A stretch of 64,000 nucleotides of DNA, from positions 62,001-126,000 of the forward strand of contig NZ_AP025020.1 in NCBI RefSeq assembly GCF_019977735.1, in the 5' to 3' direction. The stretch comes from Calothrix sp. PCC 7716. GTDB taxonomy: Bacteria; Cyanobacteriota; Cyanobacteriia; Cyanobacteriales; Nostocaceae. Below, in pieces: positions 3,801 through 57,911 of this stretch (within the stretch, counting starts at the first letter, position 1; each line of letters opens with the position of its first letter). A model generated the notes under the pieces. That model had not been told where the DNA came from and searched no databases. It saw only the letters and a program-made list of their open reading frames with translations. The position numbers and the translations under genes are program-made.

Positions 3801-4442
3801 ATGTACGCCTTAATTTCAACTGAAAAAATTCAACTACCTTCCGGAATGTTGGTGCGAGTACCTGGTTCTTGGCAACTATATCGTACCCTCTGCGATAGCC
3901 GGGGCGATTCCTCCATTCCACGTATAAAGTACCGCTCTGGAGAAATTTTATTAATGTCACCATTGCCTAAGCATGGACGCGAAGCAAATATTTTGGCAGA
4001 TGTTGTTAAAGTTTTACTTGATACCCAAAACCGCAACTACGAAGCATTCACTCCCATTACAATGGAACTGCCCTCTGAAAGTGGCATTGAGCCAGATTAT
4101 TGTTTTTATATAGATAATTGGCAAGCAGTGGTCGGACGCGACAGGTTAGATTGGCAAACCGACCCATCACCAGATTTAGCAATCGAAATTGATGTCACTT
4201 CGTACACCGATGTCAATGACTATGCACCGTATCGTGTCCCAGAAGTTTGGCTGTTCAAACGCAATCAATTATTAATTTACGGCTTACAAAACAATAAATA
4301 CCAATTGCAACCAACCAGTCGTTACTTCCCTAATGTAGATTTGCAAACTCTCATAACTCAATGCTTAGAAGCAGCAAGCGCGCGTGGTACAGGTGTCGCA
4401 ATTCGTGAATTACGCAGTTCTTTGACACTCGGTTTGGAATAA
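3801..4442 (+). CDS. Uma2 family (DUF820) endonuclease-like protein
   Basis: The protein has 213 residues. It matches the Uma2/DUF820 family, which is greatly expanded in cyanobacteria and has a PD-(D/E)XK nuclease fold. Visible landmarks are the IEPDYCFY segment, where the acidic residue of the active site sits, and SPDLAIEIDVTS, which corresponds to the second acidic motif; the usual E-x-K is less clear (EID). The length fits the family. It stands alone between a hypothetical gene and parA. The physiological role of the family is not established. Confidence 0.85.
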   Translation: MYALISTEKIQLPSGMLVRVPGSWQLYRTLCDSRGDSSIPRIKYRSGEILLMSPLPKHGREANILADVVKVLLDTQNRNYEAFTPITMELPSESGIEPDYCFYIDNWQAVVGRDRLDWQTDPSPDLAIEIDVTSYTDVNDYAPYRVPEVWLFKRNQLLIYGLQNNKYQLQPTSRYFPNVDLQTLITQCLEAASARGTGVAIRELRSSLTLGLE

Positions 4443-4541
4443 TTACCTATATTTTCCGCCCATATGTTGACTATGCAACATTATATGCTATTCTCTTTTT
4501 CAAGAATCTTGTTTTCTACTTTCTATAATCTACCTAACTAG

Positions 4542-5366
4542 ATGGAAGAATCATCTAAACTAGCAACTGTTATCGCTATCTCTTGTCTAAGCGGGGGTTC
4601 TGGCAAAACCACCACCGTCTTAAACATCGCCACGATGCTTTCAGATAAAGGTAAAACTCTAGCTGTTGATTTCGACCCGCAAGGAAACTTGAGTCAATGG
4701 CTTGGTATTAACGACCTTTCCGAATCTGCTACCATCGCGGAGACTATTTTACCTGACACCGACCGCGTACAAATTAAGGAAATTATTTTACAGCCGACCA
4801 ACGAAGACCGCAAAGGGCGCCTACTACTTGCACCCAGTGACTATAGTTTATCGAGGGCAGCCGATGCAATTGCAATGGAACCTGGACGCGAACGTTTTCT
4901 CAAGCGCGCGTTAAAACCCATCCTTTCTGAGTACGACTTTATTGTCATCGATGCTCCACCCTCGAAAGGTATCCTTACATATAACGCAATTCTCGCTGCT
5001 GACTTTTTGGTTATTCCTACCGAATGTACCCCCAAAGGAGTCACTGGCGCAGTTAGTACTTCAGTCTTAGTTAAAGAACTCGAAGAACTTGACTTTCAGG
5101 TGCCCCGTATTTTAGGAATTGTACCTACCAGAGACGCTTGGGCAGGCGCCAATCAAACGCGCATTTCCAAAGCAGCAATAACAGCACTCAAAGAAGCACT
5201 TCCAGAAGTCCATATATTTAGTTCCGTTCGTCAAAGTACAGTAGTCCAGCAAACAAACCACGCTGGATGGTCACTGCTGGAAGCTGGAGAGAAGTCCTTA
5301 GCACAACCTTACATAGAAGCTGTTAGCGCAATAAGAAAAAGCCGGAAGTCAGAAGTAAAAAAATAA
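4542..5366 (+). CDS. parA: ParA-family partition ATPase
   Basis: The protein has 274 residues with the ParA/MinD fold: P-loop SGGSGKTT (residues 17-24), Walker A' DFDPQGNLSQWLG and Walker B FIVIDAPPS. ParA proteins segregate plasmids or chromosomes by ATP-driven binding to DNA with a partner protein. The signature lysine that normally opens the deviant Walker A motif (KGGxGKT) is a serine here, while the P-loop lysine is kept. The downstream gene begins 12 bases after the stop and is probably the partner. No iterons or clear centromere repeats are visible nearby, so plasmid location is an inference. Confidence 0.85.
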   Translation: MEESSKLATVIAISCLSGGSGKTTTVLNIATMLSDKGKTLAVDFDPQGNLSQWLGINDLSESATIAETILPDTDRVQIKEIILQPTNEDRKGRLLLAPSDYSLSRAADAIAMEPGRERFLKRALKPILSEYDFIVIDAPPSKGILTYNAILAADFLVIPTECTPKGVTGAVSTSVLVKELEELDFQVPRILGIVPTRDAWAGANQTRISKAAITALKEALPEVHIFSSVRQSTVVQQTNHAGWSLLEAGEKSLAQPYIEAVSAIRKSRKSEVKK

Positions 5367-5378
5367 GAGAGACAAATT

Positions 5379-5996
5379 ATGGCTACACCTAAAAAGAAGC
5401 TACCTACTGGACCTATACGGATACAGGCGCCTGTCACCAAAAAATCTGAAACAATTACTGCACAAGCTTTAGAACCAGATACTAGTTCAGAAGAAACCAC
5501 AAATCTAGAACCTGTAAAACAAGAATCTACTAAACTAGAATCATTTACATTAGAATTAATACCCGAAACTAGTAATCACACTAACGTTATACCGCTACAA
5601 GAATCTAGTTTTATAGAAGCTAGTAAACTAGATGCTGCAATTCCAGATGTACAAAATCCTCAAACTCAAGAAACTACCAAATTAACAAAAGATTCAGCTA
5701 GTCAAGAATCTAGTTTTCCAGAATCAAGTTTGCAAGAATCTTATCTACAAGATACAGACTTCAAGAAAGTAGCAATGCGGCTTTCTGGTGAAGCAGTCGC
5801 TAAATTGCAGCAATTCCGCGCGTCATCAGGTATACCCTACGAAATTTTGGTTGATGTCATGGTTCGTAACTGGGAAAACCTGCCTCAACGCACACAAAAC
5901 TCTTACCTACACCAAGCAAAACAACTACGAGTACAAAGACTCATGGCTGGACAAGAAAAAACAATGCAAACCATGAAAGCCAAGTATTTACAGTAA
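5379..5996 (+). CDS. Putative ParA partner with low-complexity N-terminal region
   Basis: The protein has 205 residues. Residues 1-125 are low complexity, with many short acidic and serine-rich units such as QESSF, PESSL, QESYL and QDTDF in a five-residue rhythm. The last 80 residues form a charged, probably helical domain (FKKVAMRLSGEAVAKLQQFR...) that could bind DNA. Twelve bases separate it from parA, and a GAGAGAC tract precedes its ATG. Position directly after parA suggests a ParB-like or adaptor role, but no ParB signature motif is seen. Function is inferred from context only. Confidence 0.55.
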   Translation: MATPKKKLPTGPIRIQAPVTKKSETITAQALEPDTSSEETTNLEPVKQESTKLESFTLELIPETSNHTNVIPLQESSFIEASKLDAAIPDVQNPQTQETTKLTKDSASQESSFPESSLQESYLQDTDFKKVAMRLSGEAVAKLQQFRASSGIPYEILVDVMVRNWENLPQRTQNSYLHQAKQLRVQRLMAGQEKTMQTMKAKYLQ

Positions 5997-7113
5997 ATCA
6001 ACTGCAAATTGTTATGCCCAGGTAGAAGCATCTGGAACGTAAACGCAGTTTTCCTGCACGACCAAGTTGGCGCACCTTTCAAACTTCTACCTCAAGGTGA
6101 CTAGGCTATCATTAATGATTGAATCATTGCTTCAAGACCTTGTAGTGACGGCACTATAACTTTTATTCTTGAATATCATACCACCCTTGGAGAAAAGCCA
6201 CACAATTTTTATAATTATAAAGATTTTTATAAGATAATGAAATTTTGGGTTTAGTAGCTTGATTTCTTAAGTATTTACCGTTAAATTAAACGCTATAGTT
6301 TTTTAACTTGGTATAATTACAAAAATAAAATTTTGTTCTTGAATAAAATAAAAGCGTTAGTAGTTTATTGAATAACATGAATCATATTAGATGTAAACCC
6401 AAAGCTGTTATATGACAAAGTAATAACTTTCATTTGTTTGCAAAGTCAAATTAGAAAGTTGTATCACAGTATATTTTAACTATTGTAATATAGATTCAGT
6501 ATATTGAGCTACCTGTTCAATATTGAGCTTTAAGTTTTTAATCTTTCTGTAATCTTTGTGTAAATAAAGCGAATCTCCTTTTACAAACATAAATGCTTGT
6601 GTCCACAGGAAATTGAACTGACTTTATTTGAACATATTTTTCTTGTGATTGAAACAAGAGCTAAATTTATTAGTACAACAATGCTAAATAAAATAGCTTG
6701 ATTTTAGTTAAAAATACTGATAAATTGGAAATTAATAAATTTTGATAATCATTTTCATAATTGTTTGGAGTACATTGATGATGAATAATAAATCTGATTT
6801 AGTACACTCGCCTTTATTATGCAACTTTTTAAAGTTTGCTAGTGCTGGCGTTAATGCACGAGTTACATTTGAAAATATTTGAATTAATATCTAAATTCAC
6901 CTCGAACGTATTAATCAACGGCGCTTTATGAATAGTCTCGAACTCCCTATCCTTTTTTTGGGAAAGCTTTGCTTCAGATTATTCTATTAGGAAATCAAAA
7001 CTTAGCTTACAGGCATGTTCATGGGGAGCAAGTAACTCTATTGATGCCTTTCATCGTAACAATTTTTAGATAGTTTTCCAAAATTTAAATTTCACAATTT
7101 TTGAGGTTTATCA
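5997..7113. other. Long AT-rich non-coding region
   Basis: This 1.1-kb region lies between the ParA pair and a PEP-CTERM gene. It contains no GGCGCC and no gene I can support except the tiny reading frame at 6778. I looked for iterons or tandem repeats that could mark a replication origin or centromere and saw none. Confidence 0.5.
6778..6882 (+). CDS. Possible 34-residue small protein
   Basis: Tandem ATGs at 6778 and 6781 follow a GGAG eight to eleven bases upstream and open a 34-residue frame starting MMNNKSDLVHSP. It resembles no family I know. It could be a small protein or the stub of a decayed gene. The only support is the ribosome-binding site and the gap in other coding. Confidence 0.2.
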   Translation: MMNNKSDLVHSPLLCNFLKFASAGVNARVTFENI

Positions 7114-7914
7114 ATGCTTTTGAATAACATAAAGAAGATTATGGTGGTAGGCACTGTTTTCACAGTTTTAGCTTGCTTATTCCCACAATCTGCTCAAGCT
7201 CGAAGATTTGGTTTCTCTGGCAGTCCAAACGGGACTATTAGAGCTGATGAATGTTGTATAATAGATTCCTCTATTCAAGATTCATCCCCGAATGATGATA
7301 ATGTAGGTATTTTTAAAGGAGCATTTGAGAAGTTTTCTTTTACAATTCAAGAAAGAGCAATTGATTTTTTTTACTCACAACCACCTTTGTTATTAGGAGA
7401 TATAAGGTCTTCTCTAATTACAGATAATGATTTAATTCAAGACCTTATAGGCGCAGCAATTAATCCAGATGTTTCTAATCCAACAGCTGCTCTCTTTGTG
7501 AATGGCGGGGTGCAGTATGAAGCTACATTTAGTAACAGTCTAATAACGTTCACCTTTTTTGCTCCCTTTGTGGATTCTCATTCGTCTACTCGTTCTGCTT
7601 TAATCAATGATTTATCAAGCTTAGAACAATTTAACTTTCGTGGTATTCCAGCATTCATTCGTAATATTATTAATCCTTTAACAGGTAGTTTCTATGAACA
7701 GATTGGTTTTGGCGCTCCCGGAGGCTTTGGTAGTACTCCTGTTGCATTAGGATTTAGAGTAATAGATGATACTCCACCATTGACAACAAAGGTGCCTGAA
7801 CCTATATCACCAGCTAGCTTACTAGGTATTGGAGCTATAAGCACAATATCACTTTTAAGACGTAGAAATATGAAGATAAAACTAGCTAACAGTGAGTTTA
7901 CTCTATCTAAATAG
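7114..7914 (+). CDS. PEP-CTERM sorting-domain protein
   Basis: The protein has 266 residues. It starts with a signal peptide (positive MLLNNIKK, hydrophobic core, cleavage probably after SAQA) and ends with the PEP-CTERM module: VPEP, a hydrophobic helix and the basic RRRN cluster. Such proteins are exported and processed by exosortase at the cell surface. The middle shows no recognised domain. A clear rho-independent terminator follows at 7966. The next gene is also for an exported protein, and two more PEP-CTERM genes lie within 8 kb. Confidence 0.85.
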   Translation: MLLNNIKKIMVVGTVFTVLACLFPQSAQARRFGFSGSPNGTIRADECCIIDSSIQDSSPNDDNVGIFKGAFEKFSFTIQERAIDFFYSQPPLLLGDIRSSLITDNDLIQDLIGAAINPDVSNPTAALFVNGGVQYEATFSNSLITFTFFAPFVDSHSSTRSALINDLSSLEQFNFRGIPAFIRNIINPLTGSFYEQIGFGAPGGFGSTPVALGFRVIDDTPPLTTKVPEPISPASLLGIGAISTISLLRRRNMKIKLANSEFTLSK

Positions 7915-7965
7915 AAGACTAGATTCAATTTAAAACAATCTTTTTGTAGAGTTATTTAGCTGTTA

Positions 7966-8004
7966 AAAGTTAGGAGTATTTTCAACTTTGCCTCCTAACT
8001 TTTT
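7966..8004 (+). terminator. Rho-independent terminator after the PEP-CTERM gene
   Basis: An 11-base perfect stem (AAAGTTAGGAG at 7966-7976, CTCCTAACTTT at 7992-8002) with a 15-base loop runs into a T tract. It lies 51 bases after the stop codon of the PEP-CTERM gene. Confidence 0.85.
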
Positions 8005-8061
8005 ATCCTTAGCAGTTAAAAATTAAATAATATGAACTGGAAGACTGAGGGCATTCTATTT

Positions 8062-8766
8062 ATGAAACGTTATACTTTCCAATTTTGGTTTTGTAATGGA
8101 AGTATTTTATTGTGGCTATTAGCATCTAAGTCAACTTTGGCAGAAATTATTCCAGATAATACTCTGCCTGTTAACTCTATTGTTACACCTTCTAGCAATA
8201 TTAGAGTAATTGAGGGAGGTACCCAGCTAGATGGCAATCTCTTCCACAGCTTTCGAGAGTTTTCATTTTCATTACTTTCTAGTGATACTACTGGAGACAC
8301 TGCATTTTTCAATAATGGCGCCTCAGTTAGAAACATTATTACGCGCGTTACAGGTGTATCAATTTCTAACATAGATGGTGTAATACAAGCTAACGGCGCC
8401 GCCAATCTATTTTTTATTAACCCCAATGGCATTATTTTTGGACCTAATGCCAGTTTGAATATTGGAGGTTCGTTTGTAGCAAGCACAGCAAACAGCCTGA
8501 AGTTTACCGATGGCACCGAATTTAGTGCAACCTTTCCTCAAACCTCTGCTTTGTTAACAGTTAATGTTCCCTTGGGACTGCAATTTGGCTCAAACCCAGG
8601 AGAAATTCTTAATCAATCCCAAGCAAGTCCTCTTGAAGGGGTCAATAGTATTGGCTTACCCGTTGGATTGCAAGTTCAAAGCGGTAAGACTCTTGCGTTG
8701 GTGGGTGGTAATGTATCTTTAGCTGGCGGCAATTTAACTGCAATTGGAGGAAGAATTGAGCTAGTA
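8062..8766 (+). pseudogene. Filamentous haemagglutinin-type exoprotein, 5' part (split by IS630)
   Basis: The first 235 codons encode a signal peptide ending near STLA, then the TPS-type haemagglutinin secretion domain, recognised by LFFINPNGIIFGPNASLNIGG. These domains are exported by a two-partner TpsB pore, which is not in the window. The reading frame enters the IS element and stops at 8799. Removing the IS and one TA copy joins it in frame to the 3' part at 10089, giving a protein of 899 residues. An in-frame ATG at 8032 exists, but the ATG at 8062 has GAGGG upstream and gives a better signal peptide. Confidence 0.85.
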
Positions 8767-43665: not shown

Positions 43666-44370
43666 TTACTCATTTAAAACGAATAACTCATCTGTTACAT
43701 CCGTTGTATCCGTTGCCAAAACTACCCACACCTCATCAACATCATAAAACTCCCCACGCTGCTCCAACTTAAAATCTCCAAGCAGCAACCCTAACCAAAC
43801 TTCCACAAGTGCCAACCCTAAAACGCGCGCAAGTTCAACCAAACGAACGGCGCCTTTTCTACACATAATATAATCAAAAATCTTCTGCCGCCAACTCTCC
43901 ACATCTTCGTTTCCTGCTAAATTACGAATATCGTCCCAACTCTCGACAGCTTGCAGCATCTCCAAAACATTATCCTTTTCGACAGGCGCCGCCACCGAAT
44001 CAGTAGCAATAGTAGGATAATTATGGGCGCCATGTGGTTGAAACGTTTGGGGAAGAGGTGGTTCTTTCAAGTCATCCAAGTCAAGGTGCATCGACATCCG
44101 CACCAAACCAGCAAAAAAATCACTATCAACAACAGGTCCCAACTCACTATTACTATCGCGCGTTTCCTCCAAAAGTAACAACGAACGCGCTTTGAGAATA
44201 TCGGCAATTTGTACAAATGCTAAACTAGCAGCTTCCAACTGTTGCTCAACAGTCAATAAAGGCAACTCCAAATCAAGACATTCCCAAACAACATCAAGCG
44301 TAGCATCAGGTGGCGCCGATGATAATTCGTCCAAGATATCCCAAATAGTTAACTGCTGAAACTCTGCCAT
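43666..44370 (-). CDS. Unknown protein with winged-helix-like C-terminus, third gene of ATPase operon
   Basis: The protein has 234 residues from ATG 44370, two bases after the stop of the gene before it. The part FVQIADILKARSLLLLEE (about residues 55-72) resembles kleisin/ScpA helices, and the C-terminal 75 residues (IMCRKGAVRLVELARVLGLALVE) look like a winged helix. That resemblance is weak, but a kleisin-like partner would fit next to an SMC-like ATPase. Acidic linker in the middle. No family assigned with confidence. Confidence 0.5.
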   Translation of the reverse strand: MAEFQQLTIWDILDELSSAPPDATLDVVWECLDLELPLLTVEQQLEAASLAFVQIADILKARSLLLLEETRDSNSELGPVVDSDFFAGLVRMSMHLDLDDLKEPPLPQTFQPHGAHNYPTIATDSVAAPVEKDNVLEMLQAVESWDDIRNLAGNEDVESWRQKIFDYIMCRKGAVRLVELARVLGLALVEVWLGLLLGDFKLEQRGEFYDVDEVWVVLATDTTDVTDELFVLNE

Positions 44371-44372
44371 AG

Positions 44373-44843
44373 CTACACATCTGAACGCAAAGGACATTCA
44401 GAAATTGGACATTTTGATGGGCTAATCTCGAACATTTCCTTATATTGAACGAGAGTACAATTATACTTTTGAGAAAAAGCTTTTAGAACCTGTTCGGTAT
44501 AAGCCTTAATTTTACCAGCAGTCAACCCAAAGCAATGAATAGGTTCCAAGCGACAAATCGCCTTTTGTCCATACCACAACTCGGCGCCAAGTGCATGTAA
44601 CGGTTTATCACCCGGCGCCTTATATAAATACAGCACAGCAAAATAATTAGCTGGTGGCTCAACACTTATCGTATCAATTTCTGCATCATTAGTCTGCGAA
44701 GCGCGGCGCCGATAAAACGAACGGCGGTTATGACAATGTTTAGCATCCCAACAATTATCACCATCAGAACCATGCACTATTTTTGCTTGTGCGGTAGAAA
44801 GCCTCGTACACAATAAACATTTATTGTTAAATGGTTTTGGCAA
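44373..44843 (-). CDS. Cys/His-rich protein, second gene of ATPase operon
   Basis: About 156 residues if it starts at the TTG at 44843, which aligns with the ATG start of its relative at 46765; ATGs at 44882 and 44873 would overlap the ATPase gene more. The N-terminus has KCLLC, then CWDAKHCHNRRSFYRRR, a likely zinc site. The C-terminal part has the conserved block PLHALGAELWYGQ and HCFGLTAGKI. A paralogue lies inside the Tn7-like element at 46292. It overlaps the ATPase gene by 17 bases. Family and function are unknown to me; it is not a standard HNH nuclease. Confidence 0.65.
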   Translation of the reverse strand: MPKPFNNKCLLCTRLSTAQAKIVHGSDGDNCWDAKHCHNRRSFYRRRASQTNDAEIDTISVEPPANYFAVLYLYKAPGDKPLHALGAELWYGQKAICRLEPIHCFGLTAGKIKAYTEQVLKAFSQKYNCTLVQYKEMFEISPSKCPISECPLRSDV

Positions 44844-45927
44844 GCGAACCCCCAGCCAATCGGTAAGTATCATCTTCACCAATCACATCGCTAACAGCAT
44901 CACTATGGGTTGTCACAATAAACTGGCAAGTTGAACAAAGTTTAGGAAGCTGCTTTATTAATAACTGTGCTGCTGGTGGGTGAAGATTTAAATCAATTTC
45001 ATCAATTAACACAACCGAGTATGCTATCTGCTGACGCACAAACTCGTAAAGTATCGGAAATACCGACTGTTCCCCCGCTGACATCTCCACAATATCGTAA
45101 TTACGGCGCCCGTCACTGATTAAAAAATAGTAATCTTCCGGTGTAGGAGAATCTACACCCGGCATTGGTTCCACACCAGCAAACGAGCGTTCAGGAAAAA
45201 TCTTGGTATATAAATTTTCTAATTGTGTCAAATAATCTACAGTCGAAGTCTGAGTAAGTTGAGCGAACTTCCAACCATTTAAATACTTCCGTAACCTCGC
45301 CACACCCACTTCAAAAGAGACTCTTCCAGTTGTAGATTTACTTATACGTGCAGGACTGGCGCCGTTTTCTTCCCTTTGCGGTGTCACACCCAAATTACGA
45401 AACTGGTCAAACCAAAAAATACCAGGCAACTTATAAAACTCAGAGCGCACCGTTGGGTCAGTCTCCAACAAACTGCGCGCGTAATAACGTCCCGCAAACT
45501 GAAAATATTGAGCATCATCAGCAGCATAACAGCGCTCACCATCAAGAACAAGCCGAACACGCTCAGTATCACCAGGTTCAACCAAAGCACGTTCCGACTG
45601 AGTAGCAGCCCATCTATGGAACAACGCGCGCGTAGCAGCTAATTCCTCAGTCGTAAACAATACCTCAATTTCGATATACGGCGCCCCCCAACGTTGGTAG
45701 CGACCAGGAAGAAACCCCAACCAATCAAAATCAGTAACACGTCGAATTTGCTTAGTAGCCAACGCCAAAGGAAGCGCAATAGCTTGCAACAGCGTAGTTT
45801 TTCCCGTACCGTTATCACCCAGCAACAGGAAACGATTACTAACCGTATCGAGAGTTTGGTTTTTAAACGACACCTCTAAACGCTCAAAGCGCTTAAAGTT
45901 CTTGATAGTTATAGACTCAACCTTCAT
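44827..45927 (-). CDS. SMC/OLD-like AAA ATPase, first gene of a three-gene operon
   Basis: The protein has 366 residues. It begins MKVESITIKNFKRFERLEVSF with Walker A LLGDNGTGKTTLL near residues 35-47, has the ABC-type signature EMSAGEQS, Walker B VVLIDEIDLNLHP and the H-loop IVTTHSD. Such stand-alone SMC-like ATPases drive systems such as Septu, OLD/Gabija and retron complexes with a nuclease or effector gene next door. Here the neighbours are a Cys/His-rich protein and a winged-helix-like protein. Its start lies 120 bases from the left end of the Tn7-like element, so the element sits in or near the operon's promoter. Confidence 0.85.
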   Translation of the reverse strand: MKVESITIKNFKRFERLEVSFKNQTLDTVSNRFLLLGDNGTGKTTLLQAIALPLALATKQIRRVTDFDWLGFLPGRYQRWGAPYIEIEVLFTTEELAATRALFHRWAATQSERALVEPGDTERVRLVLDGERCYAADDAQYFQFAGRYYARSLLETDPTVRSEFYKLPGIFWFDQFRNLGVTPQREENGASPARISKSTTGRVSFEVGVARLRKYLNGWKFAQLTQTSTVDYLTQLENLYTKIFPERSFAGVEPMPGVDSPTPEDYYFLISDGRRNYDIVEMSAGEQSVFPILYEFVRQQIAYSVVLIDEIDLNLHPPAAQLLIKQLPKLCSTCQFIVTTHSDAVSDVIGEDDTYRLAGGSLAKTI

Positions 45928-45992: not shown

Positions 45993-46046
45993 CCCATATA
46001 TACTCACCTAAATTTTGTGCAGGCGCCTGGGCATTATAAATTAAAG

Positions 46047-46188
46047 TATAGGTTTACTTAAAAGTTGCAAATTTTGGGACGTAGTTACGTTGTTTCAGGT
46101 ATCTATTTTTTCACAAAAGTTGCAAATTTTTTTCACAGAGTTGCAAATTTCCGAGAAAATTTACGCAAAAGCTGCAAATTTTGTCACC
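46047..46188 (+). repeat. Left end with four TnsB-type binding sites
   Basis: Copies of the AAAAGTTGCAAATTT motif lie at 46057-46075, 46111-46130, 46134-46150 (GAGTTGCAAATTT) and 46163-46182 (AAAGCTGCAAATTT), all in the same orientation. The terminal ten bases TATAGGTTTA match the right end at nine. Confidence 0.8.
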
Positions 46189-46291
46189 TATATTTTAAGA
46201 AACATGTACATTATAGCAAATCCTGGCTACAGCTTGACTTCAAGCCTTGACGGCGATAAAGTTCCAATCCTGCAAAAATAAATGTATTTAC

Positions 46292-46765
46292 TTAATCATC
46301 GGGGTGTAAGGGGCAGGGGCGAACTGGGCATCTTTCGGGGCTAATCTCGAAAATATCTTTATATTTATTAAGATTTATGCCGCTAGCGAGTGAAAATGCT
46401 TCGAGTACCTGTTGCGTGTATTCCCTGATTGCTCCAGCAGTTAAACCAAAGCAATGTACTGATTGTAACCTAAATGTAGGTGCTTGTCCTAGCCATAATT
46501 CAGCACCTAAAGCGTGTAAAGGACGCTCTCCAGAGTCTCTGTAGAGTAAGAGAATTGCAAAATAATTCTCTTGTGGTTTGAGTACGACAGTGTTTATAGT
46601 GTTTTTCTCATTACTAGTGCGTGCTAGTTTTCGATAAAAGGAGCGACGGTTGTGGCAGTATTTGTCGTCCCAGCATCTATCCCCCTCTTGGCCGTGTAAC
46701 AACCTTGCCTTTTTGGTGGTCAGTTGGGAGCAAATCAAGCATTTCTGTTTAAGTGGCTTAGGCAT
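46292..46765 (-). CDS. Cys/His-rich protein inside the Tn7-like element, paralogue of 44373
   Basis: The protein has 157 residues and is collinear with the protein at 44373: MPKPLKQKCLIC, HGQEGDRCWDDKYCHNRRSFYRK, PLHALGAELWLGQ, HCFGLTAGAI, ERCPVRPCPLH. The cysteines and histidines of the probable zinc site are the same. It is the only gene between the left end and tnsB. An additional end-like motif separates it from tnsB. It may be cargo captured from an ATPase operon, or a component that helps target the element next to such operons. No ATPase gene accompanies it. Confidence 0.7.
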   Translation of the reverse strand: MPKPLKQKCLICSQLTTKKARLLHGQEGDRCWDDKYCHNRRSFYRKLARTSNEKNTINTVVLKPQENYFAILLLYRDSGERPLHALGAELWLGQAPTFRLQSVHCFGLTAGAIREYTQQVLEAFSLASGINLNKYKDIFEISPERCPVRPCPLHPDD

Positions 46766-46840
46766 ATGTACTTCAGAGCGAGGTTAAAAAGCTTCGATTA
46801 ATACCTTTGCGCGCGTCTCTCTAATCTCTTATAAGTTTAT

Positions 46841-46866
46841 GTAAAAATTGTAAATTTTGGGACGTG
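46841..46866 (+). repeat. Degenerate left-end-like motif inside the Tn7-like element
   Basis: GTAAAAATTGTAAATTTTGG and the following GACGT match the outermost left site (AAAAGTTGCAAATTTTGG then GACGT) in the same orientation, with AAATTTTGGGACGT shared exactly (14 bases). It sits between the Cys/His-rich gene and tnsB. Confidence 0.6.
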
Positions 46867-46873
46867 TATGGAT

Positions 46874-49318
46874 TCAAACATTGATTTTAGCGTTAGAGTT
46901 ATCTAGAAAGTATATGTCTTCATGTGTCAAATATTTTAATGCATCAATTGATAAAAAGGGAATAGCAAAAAAAGGTGGAAGAAAGTCAGGATTAGCTTTA
47001 TGAAAACGGGATAAAACTGAATCGACATTACTGATTGATACCTGTTGATAAATATAAGCTGATAATAACCATTCTTCAAAAATACATTTTTCAAACCAAT
47101 CATTGAAATAAAAATTACATTTTTTGCATTGAACAAAATTAGGGCTGGATAAATTTATTATTTGACCACAAACTGGACAGCTATCAACAAGACGGCATTT
47201 ATGATATGGGCATACTGTGACATAACGCAAATCCCAAACTTTAGGATAATAAGGCTTGAGAGCCAAACAAGCTGGACAAATAGTAAAACATTTATCGTTA
47301 AGTAACGAAACCGAAAAAATTTCTCCAAATCCATTTACTTGGTTTGTGTAACTACCCTCATAAGTTTTCGTATAAAGAGAATTTTGATTAGAAATAGCTA
47401 TTTGCTCTTCATGATAAGCCTCAACATCGCTTGTATCTAAACCATCACGTCCAATACCAAGCCACCGAGCCATTGATGTTTTAGTTCGACCTCGATTTGT
47501 GGTAGACCAATCTCGTTTAACAATGTCTTGAATTTTTTGTTTGGCAATAGATAGTGCAACAATATCAACTTGTTGTGCTTCAAGATAAGCTAGTCTCTTA
47601 ATTACCTTATGCTGCCAAAGTGAAAGGTTTGAAGTATAATTTTGGTCTACAGCAGGAATTGCCACAAAATTGTGGCTATCTGGGTCAAAAACGTAGATAA
47701 AAGAAATGTTTGTAGGGTCGTACTTAATTTTTGCTTTTTCTCTTTCTCTTCTACCCGTAGTTCTACGTTTATCTCGTTGTTCATAAATATGACGTAAACG
47801 AGTTAGCTCAGGACTTCTATAGTATAGTCCTTCAAATTCTATACCGTTTTGAGAAATAACTCGATAAGTTACTGCACCTAGTAAAATTCTTAAATCATTG
47901 ATATTTGCAGGTAGTAATGGTGGATATTTAGATATACCTTGAAGCCAAACATCAACCCTTGGTATTCCAAAGTCAGTGTGAGGCATCTGCCCAACTATGT
48001 CAATAATAAATAAGTGAAGGATTTCATTCAAAGAATCGATTGATATGACGGCACTTTTTTTCGGGTCATACTCATCATCATATTTTTTCATAAATTTCAA
48101 AAAACTGCCTGGTTGACCTTGCAGGGTAATTGTAGAGATGGTTCGGAAAAACCGCTCTACTTTCGCTTTATACCAAGCTAGTTTTGGTGGAGCGTAATCT
48201 AAATCAATAAACAGTAATTCGCAAGCATCTTCTAACTGAACTCCTTTAAATTCAGGAGCATTATCTGTCTTAAGCGCTGACATTAAACCGTAACAAGGCC
48301 ACGTATGCTTAACTGAAGGGAATTTGCTTTGCACGTAATGTTTTGGTTGAATAGAGTGCCATAAGCAATGCATTACTGATAAGTAACTCGCTGGTTCAAA
48401 ACTAATATAATAACCAATAGGCATCCCTGTATATCTATCTACAGCTGTTGTCAGCGTGGGGATTCCTATTGGGAGGCTTGTTTCTAAATCAACAACATAT
48501 AACGGTAATTTTGTATGGTCTATCTCAACTATTTCTAGTGGACGCATCGTATTTGGCGGTAAATATGTACATGTATTAAACATCTTATCTGCTGCTGCTT
48601 TGCCATAACGAGCAACCATTTCTTTATAAGGGTCAAGCTTGTTAACAATTCGATATATTGTTACTTGAGCAGGAATTTCTAAAGCTGGTAAACCAATTTT
48701 TTGACGAACAGCGTTTTCTTGAGTTATTTCAAAAACTACTTTTAAATAAAGGCTTGAAACTGATGGTTTTTCTAAAGTTAAATAATATTCATCAATGACT
48801 TGCTGAATAATACTTAACACCTCCGAATGTAATTGACTTTTTCTACCTTTAGCTATATTATTAGGAATTAAAGAACGAATATCACCCTCACTAAATTCAT
48901 ACTTTTTAATCCAACGATTAAGAGTTGACCAATGTGGAGGTTTATTGTCTGCCAATTCTTGAGATACCTTATTAATAATTGGTTGAAGAGATGATTCTGT
49001 TCGTTTCTTTTGCTCAGATTCAAGAAAGCATTGAATATATTTAAATCTTCTTCTTGCCTCTGCTTTTAGGTCTGAGTCAAGTTGACTAAAGTCAGCTAAT
49101 AAATAATCTTTTTTAGTTTTATCGCCAGTATCTTCTAGATAGAATTTGAGTTGATTTTCAAAGAAAAGCTTGCACAAAGATGATTCACTGTACGTAGATA
49201 AAACCCCCTTTGCAATATCAATTACTTGAAAATCGCCATTGCTAAGGCGTTTATCAATTTCATATTCTCGACCATTTAACCAAAATTTTAACCCTAAATG
49301 AAATTTAATTCTAACCAT
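46874..49318 (-). CDS. tnsB: TnsB transposase fused to a C-terminal TniQ-type zinc domain
   Basis: About 814 residues from ATG 49318, which has GTGAGG just upstream; an upstream in-frame start at 49396 would overlap tnsA. The DDE core is complete: Asp267 in EIDHT, Asp352 in LKTDNAPEF, Glu388 in KAKVERFFRT. Helix-turn-helix segments precede it and a beta-barrel-like region follows. From about residue 675 the sequence becomes TniQ-like: CPAC, VCPYHKCRLVDSCPVCG, CKKC, a zinc-binding pattern not part of TnsB. TniQ normally is a separate target-selection protein encoded after tnsC. The fusion could be functional or a scar of deletion of tnsC and the front of tniQ. Confidence 0.85.
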   Translation of the reverse strand: MVRIKFHLGLKFWLNGREYEIDKRLSNGDFQVIDIAKGVLSTYSESSLCKLFFENQLKFYLEDTGDKTKKDYLLADFSQLDSDLKAEARRRFKYIQCFLESEQKKRTESSLQPIINKVSQELADNKPPHWSTLNRWIKKYEFSEGDIRSLIPNNIAKGRKSQLHSEVLSIIQQVIDEYYLTLEKPSVSSLYLKVVFEITQENAVRQKIGLPALEIPAQVTIYRIVNKLDPYKEMVARYGKAAADKMFNTCTYLPPNTMRPLEIVEIDHTKLPLYVVDLETSLPIGIPTLTTAVDRYTGMPIGYYISFEPASYLSVMHCLWHSIQPKHYVQSKFPSVKHTWPCYGLMSALKTDNAPEFKGVQLEDACELLFIDLDYAPPKLAWYKAKVERFFRTISTITLQGQPGSFLKFMKKYDDEYDPKKSAVISIDSLNEILHLFIIDIVGQMPHTDFGIPRVDVWLQGISKYPPLLPANINDLRILLGAVTYRVISQNGIEFEGLYYRSPELTRLRHIYEQRDKRRTTGRREREKAKIKYDPTNISFIYVFDPDSHNFVAIPAVDQNYTSNLSLWQHKVIKRLAYLEAQQVDIVALSIAKQKIQDIVKRDWSTTNRGRTKTSMARWLGIGRDGLDTSDVEAYHEEQIAISNQNSLYTKTYEGSYTNQVNGFGEIFSVSLLNDKCFTICPACLALKPYYPKVWDLRYVTVCPYHKCRLVDSCPVCGQIINLSSPNFVQCKKCNFYFNDWFEKCIFEEWLLSAYIYQQVSISNVDSVLSRFHKANPDFLPPFFAIPFLSIDALKYLTHEDIYFLDNSNAKINV

Positions 49319-49373
49319 AAATACCTCACCCTGTTCATGTGAGTAATTTTTTACAAGTATTTTCCCAGTAATT

Positions 49374-50039
49374 TTAAAATTCAACGCCAGCTTCAATTAA
49401 ATATCTACGCATTTTATCCGAAATTTTAATTTCGCTTGTATAGGAAATTGGTAATATTAATTCTATTTCTAGAAAACCTGAGAATATAAGGCTAAACAGA
49501 ATTTGTTTGCTAATTCCGTCTTTGTGTAATACTTGTGTAGCTTCTTGAATTGTAACAGATGAAAAATTTTGCAAATAGTTTTTGCATCTAACCAAATCTT
49601 GTAAAGAATATTGTACCCTTGAGTACTTGTAAAGAATCTTAATATTATCGAGACAAGGCTGAATTCTTATCATCTTGTCTGTAACTACACAAAATTCCCA
49701 GCCAAATTCAGTAATTATTGGAGCAACCTTATTAAACAAAGTTAGATACTTCAGTAATCGAGCTTTACTTTCTGGTTTAACTTCTACAACTTGCTTTTTA
49801 TTTGTTCGCTCAACAAAAAAATCAGGTGTATACCTCCGTAATTTACCATCAAGGTAATAGTTCAACTTGAAAGGTTGACCAGTATAAGAAATTACCTGAG
49901 AGTCAATTTCAAGGAAATATAGATAGTCTCTTTCAAGGTGCGATTCATAAGGAATAAGTGCCTGATTTTTATTACTTACAAATTTTCCTATGTTCTTTTT
50001 TGTACCCGTATTATTAATTTTTCTAGCTGGAGTAGACAT
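49374..50039 (-). CDS. tnsA: TnsA endonuclease of the Tn7-like element
   Basis: The protein has 221 residues. The N-terminal domain has the TnsA nuclease set: Glu32/Glu36 in YESHLERDYL, Asp73 in RYTPDFFVE and E86-V-K88 in VVEVKPE. The C-terminal half is the helical TnsA region. TnsA cuts the 5' strands at the transposon ends so that the element moves by cut-and-paste. A strong GGAGG lies six bases before the ATG. It is the first gene inside the right end, followed by tnsB after 55 bases, the order of Tn7. Confidence 0.87.
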   Translation of the reverse strand: MSTPARKINNTGTKKNIGKFVSNKNQALIPYESHLERDYLYFLEIDSQVISYTGQPFKLNYYLDGKLRRYTPDFFVERTNKKQVVEVKPESKARLLKYLTLFNKVAPIITEFGWEFCVVTDKMIRIQPCLDNIKILYKYSRVQYSLQDLVRCKNYLQNFSSVTIQEATQVLHKDGISKQILFSLIFSGFLEIELILPISYTSEIKISDKMRRYLIEAGVEF

Positions 50040-50370
50040 ATTTCCTCCACAAAGAAAAAGCGGTTTGTATTCAACCTAACTGTTTTCCCTTGAATTAAAA
50101 ATTAAATTTTTGTTAACTCCAAAGTTTTCAGAACTCACGTCAGAATAAGGGTTTAAGCTTTGCTCCCAAGAAGTAGTTGCTGTGGAATGAGTCTTAGTGC
50201 ATATGGGTGGTCGCAAGAAAGTTGACCTGCTTGGTCTGCACCACTATGACGAATAAACCTGTTTTGTCCAAAAGCAATGTAGGAGGGCGCCCAAAGTCAA
50301 CACCCTACCCTTAAACCTCCAGACCGTCCGTCCCACAGAGGATTAAAGAGATTATCAGTACTTATGTATG

Positions 50371-50442
50371 GATAATTTGCAACTTTTGTGAAAAAATTTG
50401 CAACTTTTGAGTAAGGATTTGCAACTTTTGAGTAAACCTACA
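50371..50442 (-). repeat. Right end with three TnsB-type binding sites
   Basis: On the plus strand AATTTGCAACTTTTG-type motifs start at 50374, 50395 and 50416, a spacing of 21 bases, and the terminus reads GTAAACCTACA ending at 50442. They are inverted relative to the left-end motifs. Confidence 0.8.
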
Positions 50443-50710
50443 AAAGCCTTATAAACACGCCCCTGATAATATCATGAAATTTTAATCGTATTTTATGTCG
50501 TATAAAAGATAAGAGATACTTATTTTGTATTGTAGTATTGTAGCATATGTAATTTTAACCATAAGTTGAGCAATCCTAGCACTGGAGAGTAGCAAAGCTG
50601 TTATTTAGGGCAAACTAAGTGCTTTAGTTGAAGTACTGTATAAATTCTCTACCTCCTCTACCGTATAAAAAAAGCATTTTATTAAACTCAAAGCGGGTAT
50701 TGTTTTTAAG

Positions 50711-56039: not shown

Positions 56040-57911
56040 ATGAATATATGGCGTATTGGTGTATTACCCGGAATTGCGGCAATAGGGCTTACAATTATCG
56101 CGCGTATGTTAGGTTCGTTGCAGTCATTAGAGCTAGCTGCATATGATACATTCATGCGTTTGCGTCAAGATGAACCCATAGATGAGAGAATTTTGATTGT
56201 TGGTATTAATGAAGAAGATATACGACGAATCAAACAGTATCCAATACCTGATGGAGAAATTGCAAAACTACTACGTACATTACAAAGCTATCAACCTGCC
56301 GCAATTGGGTTAGATATTTATAGAGATATACGTGTTGAACCAGGACATAATGAATTAGCTAGTGCATTCCAAGAGATGAAAAATGTTATTGGCATAGAAA
56401 AGGTTTTACCGGGTATTGATGGATTTACGGTGAACCCACCTCTAAATTTACCGTCGGAGCAAGTAGGTTTTGTTGATACTCTTGTTGATAAAGACGGTAA
56501 ACAGAGACGGACTCTATTGGGTACACCAGATTTAAAAGATGAATGGCGCCTATCTTTATCGCTAAAGTTAACAGATATTTATTTAAAAAAACAAGGTATT
56601 AATCGGAAAGAAGAGCAAAGTCCGAGCGAAGGATATTTAATAAAGTTTAATTCTACAAAAATACCTAAGTTTCTGCCAAATGATGGTGGTTATATTTATG
56701 CGGATAAGGGCGGATATCAAACATTAATCAATTTCCGTAGTAATATCAAACCTTTTCGTATTGTCTCTCTTACAGATATTAACAATAAAAAAGTTGATGC
56801 TAGTTGGATTCGAGATAAAATCGTGCTAATTGGTCTTACTACTCCCAGTATTAAAGATTATACATTATCCGATACGATAAAAGCTAAGAATATTCCGTTA
56901 ATTTATGGAGTAGAAATACATGCTCATGTAACTAGCCAACTTATTAGTTCTGTATTAAACCAACGACCTTTTATTAAAACTTGGGCAGATAGCTGGGAAT
57001 ATTTATGGATTATCAGTTGGGGTATTATAGTAATTGCATTAAGAAGGAAAAATTTTTCTCCATTAATAAGAATTATTGTGATTAATGGGATAATTATATT
57101 TTTTATAACTATTAGTTATTCTTTGTTAACTCTAAGTTGGTGGACTCCATTTATTCCATCATTATTAATACTATTTCTTAATGCCTTCTCTATACTAATA
57201 GCAGCAATTGACAGGTACGAAGAAAATTGGCGCCTGCGTATACAGGTACAGAAACTAGTAATTAATAAAACATTTGATATAATCCATAATGGTCCACTAC
57301 AAACAATTGCTCGAATGATAAAGCAAGTTGAAGAAAATAAAGAAATATCTAATACACAAAATTTTTTATCTGAACTACGTCAACTTAATCAAGATTTACG
57401 AGGAGTGTATAAATTAGTCAAACAAGAAAATTTTATAGCGAATAATACTTTTTACATAAATCAAGAGCAAGAAATAGATTTGAAAAGACCCCTTCATGAA
57501 GCTCTAAACGAAGTGTATATTGAGGTTTTTGATAGAGATTTTCCATGTTTTAAAACCATTAAATTTAATATAATTAACTTTCAACCCTTAAATGAAAAAA
57601 ACTTGAGTGCAGAATTAAAACACAGCATTTGTCGTTTTCTCGAAGAAGCATTATGTAACGTAGGAAAGTATGCTCAAAATACAACTCGACTTGAAATTAG
57701 TTGTGAATGTAAGAAAGGAAAAAATATAATTATAGTCAAAGATAACGGTTTAGGTGTACAAAAATTCAATCATTCGTCCTACCAAGGATTCGGAACTCAA
57801 CAAGCAATGACTTTAGCAAAGCAGTTAAGAGGTAAGTTTGAACGTCTTCCTAATTCTCCAAAAGGAACTATTTGTCAACTTTCTTGGTCTACACATAAAA
57901 GCTGGTTATGA
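56040..57911 (+). CDS. CHASE2-domain sensor histidine kinase
   Basis: The protein has 623 residues. An N-terminal membrane helix is followed by an extracellular CHASE2 domain (about 30-300; FMRLRQDEPIDERILIVGI is diagnostic), then three membrane helices (about 320-395). The cytoplasmic part has the H-box IIHNGPLQTI with His416 and a HATPase domain with EEALCNVGKYAQ and DNGLGV. It is of the NarX-like histidine-kinase class, matching the LuxR-type regulator encoded just upstream. CHASE2 kinases often stand near CHAT, DUF928 and haemagglutinin genes in cyanobacteria, as here. Signal unknown. Confidence 0.9.
   Translation: MNIWRIGVLPGIAAIGLTIIARMLGSLQSLELAAYDTFMRLRQDEPIDERILIVGINEEDIRRIKQYPIPDGEIAKLLRTLQSYQPAAIGLDIYRDIRVEPGHNELASAFQEMKNVIGIEKVLPGIDGFTVNPPLNLPSEQVGFVDTLVDKDGKQRRTLLGTPDLKDEWRLSLSLKLTDIYLKKQGINRKEEQSPSEGYLIKFNSTKIPKFLPNDGGYIYADKGGYQTLINFRSNIKPFRIVSLTDINNKKVDASWIRDKIVLIGLTTPSIKDYTLSDTIKAKNIPLIYGVEIHAHVTSQLISSVLNQRPFIKTWADSWEYLWIISWGIIVIALRRKNFSPLIRIIVINGIIIFFITISYSLLTLSWWTPFIPSLLILFLNAFSILIAAIDRYEENWRLRIQVQKLVINKTFDIIHNGPLQTIARMIKQVEENKEISNTQNFLSELRQLNQDLRGVYKLVKQENFIANNTFYINQEQEIDLKRPLHEALNEVYIEVFDRDFPCFKTIKFNIINFQPLNEKNLSAELKHSICRFLEEALCNVGKYAQNTTRLEISCECKKGKNIIIVKDNGLGVQKFNHSSYQGFGTQQAMTLAKQLRGKFERLPNSPKGTICQLSWSTHKSWL

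Follow-up and report, generated by a model that had tools for sequence, protein, structure and literature searches.

A Tn7-like transposon of Calothrix sp. PCC 7716 in which tnsB is joined in frame to the end of tniQ, probably by internal deletion

The element and its surroundings

The 64,000-nucleotide stretch of the Calothrix sp. PCC 7716 genome analysed here (the window) carries a transposon of 4395 bp (nt 46047–50441), the bounds of which were read against a related element in Calothrix sp. HK-06 (L010) and an element-free relative. Three repeats of the TTGCAAAT type are found at each end, inverted between the two sides, as is typical of Tn7-like elements (Table 1). The flanking pentamers, TAAAG and AAAAG, agree in four of five bases; under the same end convention, L010 is bordered by a perfect ATTTT pair. 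In element-free G431 (L078) about 65 bp separate the homologies to the two flanks, and AAAAG occupies the site in our alignment; in G432:C11 (L077), also element-free, the distance is about 330 bp. A further match in the same genus, G432:C12 (L076, near nt 57,100 of its contig), has the left flank of the window followed by about 42 bp of an element end and then by unrelated DNA, and is interpreted as what is left of this insertion or of an earlier one.

Between the ends there are three ORFs of at least 80 aa and no others: a tnsA gene, the fused gene described below, and a Cys-rich gene, X. The tnsA frame is intact and encodes a TnsA-like endonuclease; it lies upstream of the fused gene and, like X and an interior end-like copy, was not part of the initial annotation. 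The claim that no AAA+ regulator is encoded within the element was borne out, as none of the ORFs of at least 80 aa in nt 46047–50441 represents a tnsC or other AAA+ gene. None of them is cas-like either, so the element does not qualify as a CRISPR-associated transposon (CAST). An AAA ATPase gene does occur outside the element (nt 44827–45927), and matches AAA_21, AAA_15 and SMC_N but no TnsC model. It belongs to a trio of same-strand genes adjoining the element (nt 43666–45927, minus strand), which encode a 243-aa protein, an X-family protein and this SMC/RecF-like ATPase. The ATPase has PtuA/AriA-like matches in PADLOC, and the trio is possibly a defence cassette. DNA homologous to the trio, with the element absent, is present in G431 and G432.

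The X protein shows no match in Pfam, NCBIfam or PADLOC, and is one of a family of Cys-rich proteins of 157–169 aa that likewise lack Pfam or NCBIfam matches. The copy in the neighbouring operon (nt 44373–44882, minus strand) is 55% identical to the X of the element, and two further copies are found elsewhere in the genome. In the sister element L034 (see below) X is broken, and an outer X copy (nt 7803–8312) starts about 5 bp past the element end. X may be carried as cargo, or the element may have acquired what was once a target gene. A decayed end-like sequence is located between the fused gene and X, the counterpart of which in L034 lies between tniQ and X, and the element may have been extended outward past X via capture of a second end.

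Table 1. Features of the transposon and its borders (positions in the window)
Feature	Position (nt)	Strand	Basis
Putative target-site duplication TAAAG	46042–46046		end alignment
tniQ-side element end, three TTGCAAAT-type repeats	46047–46190		end repeats, comparison with L034 and L010
X, 157-aa Cys-rich gene inside the element	46292–46765	-	ORF; broken copy at the matching place in L034
Interior end-like sequence, decayed, between fused gene and X	46830–46865		86% to outer end 46047–46082
Fused ORF, TnsB residues 1 to ~646 plus C-terminal ~168 residues of TniQ, in frame	46874–49318	-	ORF, Pfam, comparison with L034
Deletion junction, good to a few bases	47378–47383	-	comparison with L034
tnsA (TnsA-like endonuclease), 221 aa	49374–50039	-	PF08722, E 2.3e-11
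tnsA-side element end, three 21-bp repeats	50374–50441		end repeats, comparison with L034 and L010
Putative target-site duplication AAAAG	50442–50446		end alignment

The fused reading frame

The fused gene specifies an 814-aa translation, beginning MVRIKFHLGL, that is uninterrupted by stops. The catalytic triad (Asp267, Asp352, Glu388) is followed in the same frame by the motifs CPAC (681–684), CPYHKC (703–708), CPVCG (714–718) and CKKC (731–734), the triad lying where the initial annotation had placed it. Residues 478–552 match Mu-transpos_C in Pfam (PF09299, E 2.5e-8), which together with the triad identifies a TnsB-type DDE transposase. Residues 649–710 match TniQ (E 6.3e-8), but only at profile positions 78–142 of 142, indicating that the N-terminal half of TniQ is gone; relative to L034, 74 N-terminal codons are missing, and the protein does not contain a complete TniQ/TnsD target selector. 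The PADLOC models for TnsB (1.4e-20) and TniQ_IF (8.1e-13) are both matched. Structure prediction for residues 2–814, from an alignment of 18 rows, gave a mean pLDDT of 59.7 and a pTM of 0.29, the DDE core being mostly at 30–57. For the TniQ part alone (9 rows), the mean pLDDT was 50.7, with residues 51–110 of 168 at 62–78. Both models are of too low a quality for conclusions about the zinc region.

Comparison with a sister element

The scan of 217 family genomes described below yielded a close sister element, L034 (genome G545, same family). It resembles that of the window in gene order, ends and the interior end-like copy, and differs in keeping tnsC (380 aa), a tniQ of 238 aa and the TnsB tail, while having lost the catalytic core of tnsB. 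The two align in four main blocks of 80.6–90.1% DNA identity, which cover tnsA and the start of tnsB (85.6%), tnsB codons 566–646 (90.1%), the stretch that begins near tniQ codon 75 and takes in X (80.6%), and the tniQ-side end (87.5%). Between the second and third of these, L034 has 1726 bp (nt 4556–6281) that are absent from the window. This segment contains about 137 codons from the tail of tnsB, tnsC in full (380 codons), and tniQ codons 1–74. The junction in the window sits on a codon boundary of both parent frames. The retention in L034 of the sequence missing at the join supports one of the explanations originally offered, namely that tnsC and the front of tniQ were deleted and the fusion is the resulting scar. 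Direct remnants of tnsC at the join had been named as evidence that would speak against a real architecture, but the join is clean and no tnsC codons are recognisable at it.

L034 has a scar of its own, a 1548 bp segment (516 codons) having been cut in frame from tnsB, including the catalytic core. With the tnsB core lost (L034 nt 4142–4969) and tnsC and tniQ kept, this loss is the complement of that seen in the window. Under the end convention used, the flanks of L034 show no matching 5-bp repeat, and the insertion may therefore be rearranged.

All nine Cys/His columns of a nine-row TniQ alignment are kept in the window. Between the window and L034, the NG86 dN/dS ratio is 0.15 for tnsA, 0.05 and 0.10 for the two pieces of tnsB, and 0.23 for the TniQ part, at dS values of 0.33–0.45. 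The ratios show constraint over the entire time since the window and L034 diverged, within which the period after the deletion is not separable; when L010 is used as the outgroup for the TniQ part, 24 of the 30 amino-acid differences stay unassigned. Taken with the open frame and the kept Cys/His columns, the low dN/dS indicates that the fused protein is not visibly decaying, which counts against its being part of a damaged copy.

Related elements in other genomes

Three overlapping sets of genomes, 217 from the family, 388 from the order and 386 from the phylum, were scanned with the full fused protein at cut-offs of E ≤ 1e-40, 1e-40 and 1e-20, respectively. As scoring was confined to a few top candidates in each genome, a fusion that has diverged might have escaped notice. 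Matches were obtained in 14, 16 and 6 genomes, each count including the window's own, and in none of the three sets was the fused frame seen outside that genome. All places listed in two of these scans, including that of the family, were surveyed, giving 32 other elements and setting aside the window's own element, the matches of 28–30% identity (L006–L009), those in the same genome (L002–L004), and plasmid matches (the best 30 listed from 4633 records searched). Since some are copies or near kin, they do not amount to 32 independent lineages.

In 27 of the 32, TnsC has a frame of its own that follows tnsB, although it is in pieces in L051, L053 and L055. The remaining five consist of one fusion of TnsB to the end of TnsC (G388), one element cut by a contig end (L024), and three (L047, L050, L054) in which TnsC was not found within 1.0–1.5 kb downstream, the ORFs of L047 and L050 having also been checked. 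In 20 elements TniQ was seen beyond the TnsB frame, on its downstream side; in no element was it found within that frame (0/32). Thus, tniQ is separate wherever it is visible, and the suggestion that the fusion might be a recurrent architecture found no second example among these elements or in any other genome at the scan cut-offs. The element in Calothrix sp. HK-06, of the same genus (L010, NZ_MRCD01000083.1), has similar ends, and its TnsA and TnsB are 63% and 68% identical to those of the window. It differs in that tnsB (776 aa), tnsC (380 aa) and tniQ, as well as tnsA, are separate, and in that X is recognised over only about 20 codons; its tniQ is frameshifted near the end.

The G388 fusion (L040, nt 6094–8568, minus strand, 824 aa) joins TnsB, up to about residue 712, in frame to TnsC residues 273–367. 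It starts past the TnsC ATPase, so that the C-terminal quarter of TnsC is kept, and tniQ is a separate frame of 205 aa. Both excisions, that of the window and that of G388, leave TnsA and the catalytic core of TnsB in place, along with some or all of TniQ. Decay is seen elsewhere in the family, in the scars of L034 and G388, in the broken frames of L038 and L010, and in deletions or frameshifts in L051–L055. That the TnsC ATPase and TnsB tail were lost in frame by two distinct events may therefore be a matter of chance in a family that decays often, although it could also hint at selection for the loss of TnsC, and it is the chief argument for the TnsC-free transposase considered below.

The regions lost from TnsB and TniQ

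A six-frame scan detected the motif WxP[DN]LxxW near a stop codon in 22 of the 32 relatives, at the end of tnsB where this was compared. The same scan did not find WxPDLxxW in the window, the fused protein lacking the C-terminal tail of TnsB. The spacing of the tryptophan, leucine and aromatic residues in the motif equals that of Trp605, Leu609 and Phe612 of PseCAST TnsB, by which the TnsB hook is held in TnsC according to a preprint (PMC13228271); deletion of this hook abolished transposition (PMC13228271). In ShCAST, deletion of the hook or of the C-terminal domain likewise abolished transposition (PMC9371665), and TnsC is contacted by the N-terminal tail of TniQ (PMC9876797). It seems probable from the motif that WxPDLxxW is the TnsC-binding hook of this cyanobacterial family. 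The parts removed in the window are those known to contact TnsC in other systems.

Copy number and possible helpers

The fused gene is present in a single copy, three other TnsB-like matches in the genome being 29–35% identical over part of the protein. A search for the end pattern returned eight matches, of which six belong to the element's own ends and two are isolated, three-mismatch matches on C1, equal in number to those of the reversed control. Neither a second copy of the fusion nor a second pair of ends was found in the genome. No match was obtained when the family TnsC was used as a query against the genome, in a search run without a positive control that missed a TnsC-like gene on C1 (L013); the latter is 23% identical and lies beside another TniQ, and a helper acting in trans is therefore possible.

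Origin and possible activity of the fused gene

As close relatives keep the missing genes, the locus is most readily explained as a compact Tn7-like transposon of cyanobacteria that has suffered an internal deletion, and not as a new kind of transposase, a reading to which we assign a probability of about 0.88. The parent element would have carried tnsA, tnsB, tnsC, tniQ and X, in this order, between two repeat-bearing ends. A single deletion of about 1726 bp would have taken the entire tnsC gene together with the TnsB tail on one side and the first third of tniQ on the other. The leftover front of tnsB and back of tniQ would thereby have been joined in frame, a one-in-three outcome. The fused protein may have retained the ability to bind its own ends and to carry out strand transfer. 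With neither the TnsC-binding hook nor TnsC, and lacking the part of TniQ that contacts TnsC, it could not be recruited to a target in the usual manner, and most likely the element is stranded, at most interfering with, or being used by, related elements.

A deletion origin is also compatible with the fused protein having been kept as a repressor, or as an end-binding protein acting in trans, which blocks related elements while being itself immobile. Retention of the N-terminal region and of both end arrays, together with loss of the hook, would be expected to give a protein that is inactive but still binds DNA. However, no other element with matching ends that could be repressed was found in the genome, and this role is considered unlikely. 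That the deletion is absent from the organism and arose in assembly is very improbable, even though the sister L034 likewise has a large in-frame gap: the genome (12.4 Mb in 10 contigs) is listed as 100% complete, the join is clean, and no collapsed repeat is expected in a single-copy region.

The initial annotation had also raised the possibility of a streamlined transposase that selects its targets without TnsC. Such a protein, which could itself have originated by deletion, might use the TnsB-attached TniQ zinc region in place of TnsC, or might support untargeted transposition by TnsA and TnsB. Mutants of Tn7 TnsA and TnsB that bypass TnsC exist; moreover, the fused frame, triad, zinc ligands and tnsA frame are all intact, the ends are present, and G388 has lost the TnsC ATPase by a different in-frame event. 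Set against this, there is one copy in one genome, none of the three scans returned another, and the systems that have been studied require the TnsB hook and the TniQ N-terminus that are missing here. Direct support was not found, and we regard the proposal as very unlikely. A wider form of it, in which the family has on two or more occasions lost the TnsC module by in-frame excision and the products are TnsC-independent transposases free of target control, is just as hard to credit.

Relation to known systems and significance

The best solved-structure matches of the window TnsB are to Type I-F3 CAST proteins, PseTnsAB being the closest (5.3e-70), along with TnsB of Tn6677 (5.9e-55). For the TniQ part, the top profile match scored 5.6e-23, and the top matches are presumably TniQ proteins of the I-F type. 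The element differs from Type I-F3 CAST in having no cas-like ORF of at least 80 aa, in the joining of TnsB to a truncated TniQ, and in the lack of TnsC. Tn5469, by description, is likewise a Tn7-like element of cyanobacteria that has one TniQ, and it is without cargo (PMC11406308); no fusion is mentioned in that description. A natural fusion involving the C-terminal region of TniQ is represented by TniQ-TnsF (SCZ64694; PMC10293859), but there the partner is a target selector and not a transposase. The term 'TnsB-TniQ' does not appear in the literature searched, a set that lacks some relevant work on cyanobacterial Tn7-like elements.

A working TnsC-free transposase, if real, would be an exception to the principle that Tn7-type transposases are linked to target choice through an AAA+ regulator. 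As an internally deleted copy, the element of the window represents a natural loss of the parts that touch TnsC in other systems, and the presence of WxPDLxxW in its relatives would, at the sequence level, add this group of cyanobacteria to those in which a TnsB hook has been reported.
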